Below, one piece after another: positions 4,682 through 7,872 of a DNA stretch of 64,000 nucleotides. Made by a program: the position numbers and the translations under genes. The stretch covers positions 4,650,001-4,714,000 of the forward strand of contig NC_013441.1 of the NCBI RefSeq assembly GCF_000024785.1, read 5' to 3'. Source of the stretch: Gordonia bronchialis DSM 43247 (GTDB lineage: Bacteria; Actinomycetota; Actinomycetes; Mycobacteriales; Mycobacteriaceae). Position 1 is the stretch's first letter. Every line of letters starts with the position of its first letter. The notes beneath the pieces are model-generated. The model did no database searches and was not told the origin of the DNA. It saw only the letters and a program-made list of their open reading frames with translations.

Positions 4682-6079
4682 TCAGCGCAGGAGGGTCTCC
4701 GAAGTGTGCCCGCTCGCCTGCGCAGGCGTGCGTGGGCGGAGCCCGCGGACGGTGACCGGCCCTCCGATCGCGTGGTAGGTCCATCCGGCGTCGAGCCACA
4801 TCTGCGGGTCCAGGCAGCGCCGGCCGTCGACGATGACCTTGGCGCGCACCACGTCGTCGAGTTCTTCCGGCGACATGTGTACGAACTCGGCCCATTCGGT
4901 GGCGATCACCACGACGTCAGCGCGGTCGCAGGCCTCACCGGCGGTGGCCGCGTAGCCGAGCATCGGATACATCCGACGCGAGTTCTCCAGCGCCTTCGGG
5001 TCGAAGACGGTCACCGACGCCCCGCGCAGCGCCAGTTGCCCGGCGACGCTGAGCGCCGGTGAGTCGCGCACGTCGTCACTCTCGGGTTTGAAAGCGGCGC
5101 CGAGGACCGCGATGTTGCGGCCGAGGACATCACCGCCGACGGCCTGCGCCACCAAATCGACCATGGCCGTGCGTCGTCGCATGTTGATGGCGTCGACCTC
5201 ACGCAGGAATCCCAGGGTGCGCCGGGCTCCGAGTTCGTCGGCGCGCGCGGTGAACGCCCGAATGTCCTTGGGCAGACAGCCGCCACCGAATCCCAACCCG
5301 GCGTTGAGGAATCGTCGGCCGATGCGCTTGTCGTGCCCGATGGCGTCGGCGAGGGTGCTGACGTCGGCACCCACCACCTCACAGAGCTCGCTGATCGCGT
5401 TGATGAACGAGATCTTGGTCGCCAGAAACGCATTCGCCGACACCTTGACGAGTTCGGCTGTTGCCCAGTCTGTTTCGATGAACGGCACGCCGGTTTCGAG
5501 GATCTCCCGGTAGAGTTCGCCGATCACCGCGGCGGCCGACGACTCCAACGCGTCCGGGTCGGTGCCGAGCACGATGCGGTCGGGGGTCAGGGTGTCCTCC
5601 ACCGCGAATCCCTCACGCAGGAACTCCGGACTCCACGCCAGTTCCACGGACACCCCGTCGGCGGCGAGTACCGCGATGCGCTGGGCGAGCGACGCCGCGG
5701 TCCCGACGGGGACCGTCGACTTCCCGATGATCAGGTGGTCGCCGCGCAGGACCGGCACCAGGGCGTCGACAGCTGCGTTGACGTGCGACAGGTCGGCGGC
5801 GTGCCCACGCGGTTCCTGCGGGGTCCCGACGCCCAGGAAGTGCACCGACGCATGCGCCGCGGCCTCTCGGTGATCGGTGGTGAAGGCGAGGCGGCCGGCG
5901 GTGATGTTGCGGCGCAGGATGTCGGTCAGTCCGGGCTCGAAGAACGGCACGTCACCGGCTTTCAGCCGTTCCACCTTCGCCGCATCCACGTCGACGCCGA
6001 GCACGTCATGTCCGAGTTCGGCCATACAGGCCGCGTGGGTGGCTCCGAGATATCCGCATCCGATGACGGTGAGCTTCAT
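4682..6079 (-). CDS. udgA: UDP-glucose 6-dehydrogenase
   Basis: This 465-aa enzyme of the UDP-glucose/GDP-mannose dehydrogenase family oxidises UDP-glucose to UDP-glucuronate with two NAD+. The N-terminal Rossmann motif is 'VIGCGYLGATHAA'. 'STVPVGT' lies near residue 121 and 'WSPEFLREG' near 149. The catalytic cysteine is C268 in 'GFGGGCLPKD'. The C-terminal UDP-binding domain begins with 'VAVLGAAFKPESDDVRDSP'-like sequence. The ATG at 6079 starts directly at the Rossmann strand. In M. tuberculosis udgA (Rv0322) neighbours dcd (Rv0321). Here the two remain on one strand but an opposite-strand cassette separates them. Confidence 0.93.
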   Translation of the reverse strand: MKLTVIGCGYLGATHAACMAELGHDVLGVDVDAAKVERLKAGDVPFFEPGLTDILRRNITAGRLAFTTDHREAAAHASVHFLGVGTPQEPRGHAADLSHVNAAVDALVPVLRGDHLIIGKSTVPVGTAASLAQRIAVLAADGVSVELAWSPEFLREGFAVEDTLTPDRIVLGTDPDALESSAAAVIGELYREILETGVPFIETDWATAELVKVSANAFLATKISFINAISELCEVVGADVSTLADAIGHDKRIGRRFLNAGLGFGGGCLPKDIRAFTARADELGARRTLGFLREVDAINMRRRTAMVDLVAQAVGGDVLGRNIAVLGAAFKPESDDVRDSPALSVAGQLALRGASVTVFDPKALENSRRMYPMLGYAATAGEACDRADVVVIATEWAEFVHMSPEELDDVVRAKVIVDGRRCLDPQMWLDAGWTYHAIGGPVTVRGLRPRTPAQASGHTSETLLR

Positions 6080-6257
6080 GGTCTAGTGACTACGCGCGCC
6101 GCCCTGCCGTCGGCCGACCATCACCTGGCCTGTCGTCGTCGGGTCGGTGAATTCCGCACCAACCGGTCCCCTGGCCGGCACCGCTGCTCGAGTTCGGCTG
6201 ACGCCCACCGGGACCTGTGAACAGTCTCTGCTCGTCCACATGCCGTGGGGATACGTT

Positions 6258-6990
6258 GTGGCGGTGACGCGACCGAGTAAGTCCCAGATCAACAAGTGCG
6301 GCGAGTTGGTCAGGCAGGTGCGTTACGAGGGATTGGTTGTGTCGCCAGCTGAACTGGAGTCTGCGATCCGCAGTCATAACCGACTTTCGCGCCGAGCACT
6401 CCTACCCGTTGCTGAAGGTCCGGCTCGGCTTGTCGAGCATGATTCGGACTGAACGATGTGACCCTGTCGTCAGTCAACGCTTGAAGCGGGTGCCCCGCAT
6501 CGTGAGAAAACCTCATCGAACAATCGGTTCATCAAGTGGGCGTACGCAGTTGGCGAGGTTGGAAGACATTGGTGGAGTTCGTGCTGTCCTACAGGACCGG
6601 ACAGAACTGGACAGAATACGTCGACGCATCGAGCGAAACTGGCGCGACGAGTTCAAACGCACTCGTGATTACATCGCGGTACCCAAAGAGGTTGGGTATC
6701 GGGCGGTGCACTACGTCGTCGTGAGAGATGGACGCGCGATCGAGGTCCAACTTCGGACCCGTGGGCAGCAGCAGTGGGCCGACGCTGCCGAATCGGCAGA
6801 CGCTCGACTGTCGGGCGTCGGTGTAAACCTCAAAGACGGTGAAGGACCCGCGGAGATGATCGAGTACTTCGCAGCGGCGGGTGAATTGATTTTTCTTCGC
6901 GAGTATGGTTTGGAGATACCCTCGTCGGTACACGACCGCTTCCGTGCTGCCCGGCGGGCTGTAGTTGAAGCGGGCTACTACAACGCATGA
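6258..6990 (+). pseudogene. RelA/SpoT-domain (p)ppGpp synthetase-like protein, frameshifted
   Basis: Two overlapping frames together encode a small alarmone-synthetase-like protein of about 240 aa. The first frame (GTG 6258 or 6264) gives 'VTRPSKSQINKCGELVRQV'. The second, from about 6370, gives 'SYPLLKVRLGL', 'LEDIGGVRAVL', 'TRDYIAVPKEVGYRAVHYV' and 'IEVQLRTRGQQQWADA', the DI-x-G-x-R, GYR-x-x-H and E-x-Q-x-RT motifs of RelA synthetase domains. Removing one C from the CC at 6368-6369 joins them as ...ESAIAVITDF.... There is no HD hydrolase domain, ACT or TGS. The G-loop (RLKRVPRIVRK) is not canonical. It overlaps the next gene by 4 bp and lies between udgA and dcd on the opposite strand, as an inserted cassette would. 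Confidence 0.75.
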
Positions 6991-7286
6991 GGGTCGCACT
7001 CGACGGAAAGGTGGCCATGGCCAAGCACGGCGACGACTCGGTTTACTTCCTGCTGGTCTACAGCGTCGATGACGGCCGGCTGGTCGACGATCCCGCCGAG
7101 TTCGTCGACCGCGAGGAAGCGATCGAGCGCTATGACGCTACCGAACGGCTCTACCGCGGCAAGCTCAATCGATATGAGATCGTTCTGATCGCTGCTGACA
7201 GCATCGAGACTGTGATGACCACTCACGGTCACTACTTCCAGGCATCCAACGATTCGATGTTCTCCGAATTCCTCGCTGACGCCTGA
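6987..7286 (+). CDS. Small protein paired with the RelA/SpoT-like gene (antitoxin candidate)
   Basis: The 99-aa protein starts in an ATGA overlap with the stop of the RelA/SpoT-like gene, so the two are translationally coupled. Its sequence is acidic and mixed, with no membrane helix: 'DSVYFLLVYSVDDGRLVDD', 'FVDREEAIERYDATERLY', 'YEIVLIAADSIETVMTTHGH'. I recognise no domain. Small-alarmone-synthetase toxins (toxSAS) are known to be encoded next to small neutralising antitoxins, and the position, size and overlap fit that pattern. This is inference. It could instead be an unrelated partner. Confidence 0.7.
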   Translation: MRVALDGKVAMAKHGDDSVYFLLVYSVDDGRLVDDPAEFVDREEAIERYDATERLYRGKLNRYEIVLIAADSIETVMTTHGHYFQASNDSMFSEFLADA

Positions 7287-7296
7287 TCTAGCCATC

Positions 7297-7872
7297 TCAG
7301 CCCGCCGACCCACCGAAGTTGAGATACGCCTTCGACGGCGTCGGCCCCCGTTGTCCCTGGTACTTCGATCCGACCGCAGCGCTGCCGTACGGGTTCTCCG
7401 CGGGGCTGCTGAGCCGGATGAGACACAGCTGCCCAATCTTCATCCCCGGCCACAACGTGATCGGGAGATTGGCGACGTTGGACAGCTCGAGTGTGATGTG
7501 CCCGGAGAAGCCCGGGTCGATGAAGCCGGCGGTGGAGTGCGTGAGCAGACCCAACCGCCCCAGTGACGATTTCCCTTCGAGGCGGCCGGCCAGGTCGTCG
7601 GGCAGGCTGCACACCTCGAGCGTGGACCCGAGCACGAACTCGCCCGGATGCAGCACAAACGGCTCGCCGTCGGCGGGTTCGACGAGACTCGTCAGCTCAT
7701 CTTGGCGTTGCGCGGGGTCGATGTGGGTGTAGCGGGTGTTGTTGAAGACCCGGAACAGGCCGTCGAGACGTACGTCGACGCTGGACGGTTGCACCAGAAC
7801 GGGGTCGAAGGGCTCGATCCCGAGGCGTCCGTCGGCGATCTGGGCACGAATGTCGCGATCGGAGAGCAGCAC
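7297..7872 (-). CDS. dcd: dCTP deaminase
   Basis: This 191-aa trimeric enzyme converts dCTP to dUTP, or to dUMP in the bifunctional actinobacterial form. The GTG at 7872 gives the normal family start [13 protein letters not shown]; the frame stays open upstream but that sequence is Arg/Ser-rich and not family-like. Signatures are '[17 protein letters not shown]', '[12 protein letters not shown]', '[20 protein letters not shown]' and 'MKIGQL'. The Glu of '[13 protein letters not shown]' is the expected catalytic residue. In M. tuberculosis dcd adjoins udgA; here the RelA/SpoT-like cassette lies between. Confidence 0.94.

Follow-up and report, generated by a model that had tools for sequence, protein, structure and literature searches.

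The 64,000-nucleotide stretch of Gordonia bronchialis DSM 43247 DNA analyzed here (the window; NC_013441.1, positions 4,650,001 to 4,714,000) lies on contig C1 of a two-contig genome of 5.29 Mb. Between udgA and dcd it carries, on the plus strand, a gene with a RelA/SpoT synthetase domain followed by a small open reading frame (ORF) (Table 1). Toxin-antitoxin systems of this sort, built on toxic small alarmone synthetases (toxSAS), were reportedly defined in a 2020 paper. Judged from sequence, the pair is an additional, broken member of CapRel, a toxSAS family known to protect bacteria from phages; the kind is a known one, because PMC9712102 and PMC12691689 describe CapRel both as a fused protein and, in Actinobacteria, as unfused pairs. 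A Pfam scan of the synthetase gene returned PF04607 alone and no further domain. This agrees with a sequence-only reading of the window, which had described a synthetase gene without hydrolase or regulatory domains on the strand opposite to both neighbors and had proposed a toxSAS-type cassette inserted between them; synteny, composition and CapRel-type homology bear out that proposal.

Table 1. Features of the toxin-antitoxin locus and its flanking genes in the window
Feature	Position	Strand	Basis
Toxin N-terminal part, GTG start	6258..6375	+	Own frame, runs on out of phase to stop at 6453
Toxin remainder, synthetase domain	6376..6990	+	Different frame; containing ORF 6337-6990; PF04607, 66.3 bits (cut-off 27); PDC-S33, E 3.7e-38
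QRLKRVPRIVRKP stretch	6475..6513	+	Pro in the window, Leu in homologues
GGAAAGG, Shine-Dalgarno-like, for start 7017	7005..7011	+	Read from sequence
Antitoxin, ATcapRel type, probable 89-aa coding sequence	7017..7286	+	ORF, PDC-S33 match, alignments, pLDDT, fold list
THGHYF, HxxY form of the YXXY neutralization motif	7221..7238	+	Alignments of antitoxins
udgA, left neighbor	4682..6079	-	ORF list, dcd-locus comparison, GC3 table
dcd, right neighbor	7297..7866	-	dcd-locus comparison, GC3 table

The toxin gene is split over two frames, one running from 6258 to about 6375 and the other covering the rest to 6990. Its 5' part resembles, by eye, the N-termini of the toxins at L090 and L087 (L numbers denote loci), and the toxin profile gives a second, weak match (18 bits) to the N-terminal part at the window's own locus, L095. 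The one open frame of a CapRel toxSAS is absent, and, barring a fault in the assembly, the window copy would be a non-functional remnant of the kind. The synthetase seen by the sequence-only reading is present, then, but not as a single frame, and the break had been hinted at only through the proposed assay of a "frame-restored" homologue. When the toxin profile was run against solved structures, CapRel SJ46 scored 124.9 bits, double any other match, with 60 for YjbM and 22 for FaRel2. CapRel is thereby the small alarmone synthetase nearest to the window toxin, and FaRel2, at 22 against 124.9 bits, is not close to it.

The ORF downstream of the toxin extends from 6987 to 7286 (99 aa), and its ATG shares 4 bp with the toxin stop. 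Both the ORF and the overlap had been reported correctly, but ATG 7017 is more probably the start. The GGAAAGG element ends 5 nt before it, the ORFs at L087 and L089 (89 aa each) start at the matching position, and residues 1-14 of the 99-aa reading are predicted with a local distance difference test score (pLDDT) below 50; L090 and L086 permit earlier starts. With a start at 7017, the 4-bp overlap would therefore not be the real junction. The antitoxin reading frame is intact. The protein matches the antitoxin end of the fused CapRel model PDC-S33 and aligns with the C-termini of fused CapRel proteins, and these alignments make it a homologue of the antitoxin domain, a pseudo-zinc finger, that ends the CapRel chain. 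ATfaRel2 tops the fold list of the predicted antitoxin structure, with a modest score and tied.

The YXXY motif as written for CapRel SJ46 is not present in the window antitoxin, which has a histidine at the first position and retains the second tyrosine. Since that tyrosine is kept and the same form occurs in Phrann gp30 (THSRYF), the protein may be classed as a CapRel-type antitoxin of an HxxY variant. The Phrann Gp29/Gp30 pair confers phage defense from a prophage according to the available text of PMC9262239, and HxxY is thus compatible with a working antitoxin. Among 12 mycobacterial CapRel pairs in the antitoxin-profile set, 10 carry THANYF and 2 THGHYF. The form is also found in the ATphRel-like antitoxins L006, L166-L170 and Phrann gp30; L006 (1462-2415, minus strand) is a PhRel-type pair with THARYF in the congeneric genome G046. 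Every unfused CapRel antitoxin encountered is HxxY except L030, L048 and L049, in a sample that leans to HxxY because the queries did and because the reverse-search profile was built from HxxY antitoxins. These three form a second unfused group with YPSYF antitoxins, in which the L048 and L049 toxins span two frames, so being unfused and carrying HxxY are separate traits. Fused CapRel proteins with HSHYF occur at L092 (4986-6278), L093 (1613-2965) and L094 (502-1119), from Rhizobium and a Cyclobacteriaceae metagenome-assembled genome. Their chains are longer at the C-terminus by some 80-90 aa, and in L092 and L093 this added part weakly resembles a helix-turn-helix (HTH_36, E 0.04 and 0.02, below the cut-off). 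The motif is YPNYS at L107, read by eye, and YPNYL at L119 and L151. HxxY was not found among the papers listed in a literature search, nor in the searched text of PMC11782079, where "hxxy" and "histidine" occur 0 times, or of PMC9712102, the alignments in supplementary figures lying outside the search. It appears to be an unpublished form of the neutralizing motif, as far as this literature goes.

Of 104 loci entered, all except L169 and L175 yielded a toxin sequence, 102 in total. From 76 distinct toxins plus that of the window, the short L048, L049 and L153 were dropped to give a tree of 74 rows, 72 with a motif label. The conserved-position analysis used 35 HxxY and 31 YXXY-like rows together with 6 of PhRel type. 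On the tree, all six of the latter fall into a single group (Shimodaira-Hasegawa-like approximate likelihood ratio test 100, branch 3.94); the window toxin lies elsewhere and does not group with Phrann Gp29. The H and Y forms of the motif cluster on the toxin tree, with 4 changes where shuffling gives 23.2 on average, but near-copies inflate clustering of this kind, and no more than 19 of the 71 inner branches bear a star. Among toxin positions, two weak ones (Val/Ile-Leu) are all that track the motif, so no compensating toxin change was found.

All 19 scorable positions that are at least 95% conserved in the CapRel rows are retained in the window toxin. The equivalents of R79 and R116 (CapRel SJ46 numbering) are retained there as well, as they are in 66 of 66 CapRel and 6 of 6 PhRel rows. 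At positions at least 90% conserved in the HxxY rows, 29 of 30 are kept, the sole exception being a Leu-to-Pro change a few residues past RLKR. We infer that the frame break and this substitution would together abolish toxin activity. The terminal branch of the window toxin is 0.24, against 0.17, 0.20 and 0.23 for its sister branches, which indicates no acceleration. The conserved positions and the normal branch length point either to a break of recent date or to a fault in the assembly; we take the gene to have been inactivated, probably recently. The surrounding RLKRVPRIVRK stretch had been taken as a non-canonical G-loop marking a separate subgroup; we take it to be an ATP-binding motif and not the G-loop. 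QRLKR is invariant in all 7 rows of the toxin alignment (A4) and occurs also in the fused relative L025, which speaks against a subgroup mark.

For the synteny comparison, 30 dcd loci were fetched out of 59 congeneric genomes searched. The dcd-udgA gap is 1221 bp in the window; at 22 of the 29 other loci udgA lies only 77-294 bp away (the L072 value being extrapolated from a partial match), and at the other 7 no udgA occurs inside the fetched stretch. The GC content is 57-60% in three 500-bp segments within the pair, 61-63% in two straddling its edges and 64-71% in the surroundings. The GC content of third codon positions (GC3) is 0.62-0.78 in the pieces of the pair and 0.84-0.86 in four of five neighbors, the fifth standing at 0.76. 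Apart from that one neighbor, these values confirm the less GC-extreme codon choice that had been noticed by eye. Comparison with L061, also by eye, places the left edge of the insert near 6170, and the right edge probably touches the 3' end of dcd, because the last dcd residues are unlike those of most relatives. Neither direct repeats of at least 11 nt nor promoter- or terminator-like sites were found at the insert.

The toxin is rare. With the toxin profile at E 1e-20 it was found in 4 of 401 family genomes, this one included, and in 10 of 396 genomes of the phylum sample, of which this one and 5 others are unfused with HxxY and 4 are fused with YXXY. PDC-S33 matches are far more frequent, occurring in 41 of 59 genomes of the genus and 385 of 397 of the order; they are mostly long Rel and other synthetase genes, of which only some strong ones were followed. 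The earlier prediction that the pair moves gains support from its presence in so few family genomes and from the relatives at L108 and L090, which lie near phage integrases.

The sequence-only reading had proposed checking whether the partner is constant, and it proved nearly so. In the forward searches, in which an antitoxin was accepted under a loose limit close to the toxin, it was present at 10 of 10 loci from a toxin alignment search of the genome collection (7 as a separate gene, 3 fused; the contig scan was pattern-based and the locus count is a lower bound). It was likewise present at 46 of 46 toxin loci on viral contigs (5 separate, 41 fused, with many near-copies), at 10 of 10 loci of the phylum sample, the window included and L107 judged by eye, and at 3 of 4 loci of the family sample. 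The exception, L098, is a toxin remnant adjoining a Mutator-family transposase. In reverse, the antitoxin profile matched 17 of 396 Mycobacterium genomes, with a synthetase adjoining in 16 (exception L169), and 10 viral loci, with a synthetase adjoining at 9 (exception L175). It should be mentioned that the sets overlap. Common to both directions are four viral contigs (L171/L108, L172/L109, L174/L110 and L176/L111) and two Mycobacterium toxins, those of L154 and L155 being identical to those of L090 and L087, respectively; L085/L029 and L088/L028 also share contigs. At L175 (2950-3234, viral contig IMGVR_UViG_3300044960_000182), an ATcapRel-type antitoxin with THANYF has no RelA/SpoT toxin within the 6.2 kb fetched, and is a possible phage-borne anti-toxSAS protein. 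No orphan CapRel antitoxin was found among the papers listed in a literature search. At L169 (1456-1656, Mycobacterium), an ATphRel-type antitoxin with THSRYF has no toxin detected within the 3.1 kb fetched.

A scan of ten neighboring proteins at six loci revealed two integrases (L108 and L090) and, at L110, two proteins that are lipase- and lysin-like; no match was obtained at L109, L087 and L086. The L108 viral contig carries a closely related pair, its toxin frame open, about 1.4 kb from the integrase gene. Intact natural pairs are also present in environmental relatives, for example Cryobacterium (L086) and Klenkia terrae (L088). The L029 pair adjoins AbiEii- and AbiEi-like genes, the second just below the Pfam cut-off. 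A tblastn search of the antitoxin against phage records at E 1 gave no match, and as a single sequence against viral contigs it gave 14 pattern-matching stretches of which 0 were confirmed; the family alignment found 10 loci. A plasmid search returned one match, of 50.6%, at L004 (CP063527.1), in a record labelled as a Vibrio parahaemolyticus plasmid. The GC content of the stretch fetched there is 70%, and its antitoxin is nearly the one at L096 of the family genome G619; it is probably actinobacterial contamination and was dropped as evidence for wide transfer.

Taking all of its parts jointly, we consider it highly likely that the pair is a horizontally acquired insert, namely an unfused CapRel:ATcapRel module whose toxin has been inactivated. 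Family, linkage, insertion, broken frame, motif and predicted fold are the observations beneath this reading. Unfused actinobacterial examples are named in the legends of PMC9712102 (Mycobacterium terramassiliense) and in PMC12691689 ("M. tuberculosis AB308"); the two entries appear, from the listing of PMC6006331, to be one strain. These pairs likewise reside in Mycobacteriales hosts and, compared by description rather than by published sequence, differ from the window pair in its broken toxin. CapRel SJ46 (phage SJ46; PDB 7ztb, 9erv) shares the synthetase domain with R79 and R116 and a homologous antitoxin domain. In contrast to the window pair, it is fused in one chain and has YPNYF in place of THGHYF; the toxins are 28.6% identical. 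PhRel:ATphRel of mycobacteriophage Phrann (gp29/gp30) is also unfused with the toxin gene first and is HxxY, but its toxin sits on a long separate branch and its antitoxin has 71 aa. FaRel2:ATfaRel2 (PDB 8pu1-8pu3) has a pseudo-zinc-finger antitoxin, the first entry among the folds matched by the predicted window antitoxin; however, its topology is circularly permuted and its motif is YXXY, as described in the available text of PMC11782079, and the window toxin is distant from it.

The way such a module would work is suggested by these relatives. The antitoxin domain of CapRel SJ46 is predicted to bend back and place the YXXY turn in the ATP-donor site, with R79 and R116 on either side; a phage capsid protein lifts this block and the enzyme then pyrophosphorylates tRNA (PMC9712102, available text). 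ATfaRel2 blocks the donor site in trans, with Y54A abolishing and Y51A weakening neutralization, and AlphaFold predicts the same block for split CapRel and PhRel (PMC11782079, available text). By analogy, in intact relatives of the window pair, phage sensing would trigger the toxin, which would halt translation by transferring pyrophosphate from ATP onto tRNA at its 3'-CCA end. The antitoxin, a putative pseudo-zinc-finger domain, would push the THGHYF turn into the donor site between the R79 and R116 equivalents. The tRNA target, phage trigger and donor-site block are all carried over from the published relatives. In this strain, the frame break and the Leu-to-Pro change would silence the toxin, leaving the antitoxin as the sole intact product.

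The alternative that survives best is that faulty assembly or sequencing produced the frame break and that the strain has a working CapRel:ATcapRel module. The retention of all 19 family-wide conserved positions, the lack of branch acceleration and the intact antitoxin would fit such an error, but there is no long homopolymer close to the break, the Leu-to-Pro change is a second lesion, at a site where at least 90% of the HxxY set agree, and damaged copies occur in relatives too (L089, L098). We therefore regard an error as unlikely, though it deserves serious consideration. Rather less probable is that the antitoxin was retained after toxin loss as protection against CapRel toxins on mobile elements of related hosts, an anti-toxSAS or anti-addiction role. 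An intact, conserved antitoxin does adjoin a broken toxin, the L108 pair places an open toxin frame on a viral contig near an integrase gene, and L175 and L169 lack a toxin in the stretches fetched. However, the antitoxin may not yet have had time to decay since the break. The idea of the sequence-only reading that the partner is a new, unrelated antitoxin family is very improbable: no family was found in Pfam or NCBIfam and no sequence match in the PDB, but the PDC-S33 antitoxin-end match, the alignment with fused CapRel C-termini and the first, tied place of ATfaRel2 in the fold list point to a known one, and a novel type is unsupported given this homology and the published unfused actinobacterial CapRel pairs. 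Equally improbable is a housekeeping role, with the toxin gene encoding a (p)ppGpp synthetase and the small gene its accessory regulator, since the shared synthetase superfamily and the YjbM match are outweighed by the CapRel SJ46 score, the near-constant antitoxin linkage and the sporadic distribution.

A bolder and improbable extension is that the unfused actinobacterial CapRel and PhRel antitoxins, together with the fused branch of Rhizobium and Cyclobacteriaceae that has an additional C-terminal domain, use a second toxSAS lock, HxxY instead of YXXY, and that the window antitoxin outlived its toxin and by itself shields the strain from incoming CapRel modules, as that of L175 may serve a phage. 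The insertion in Gordonia adds to the sparse, mobile set of unfused CapRel systems, and anti-toxSAS proteins could be sought and tested among antitoxins without an intact toxin, such as those of the window, L175 and L169. Given the HxxY form, the YXXY rule as published would seem too narrow, and a motif search restricted to YXXY would miss the HxxY antitoxins.
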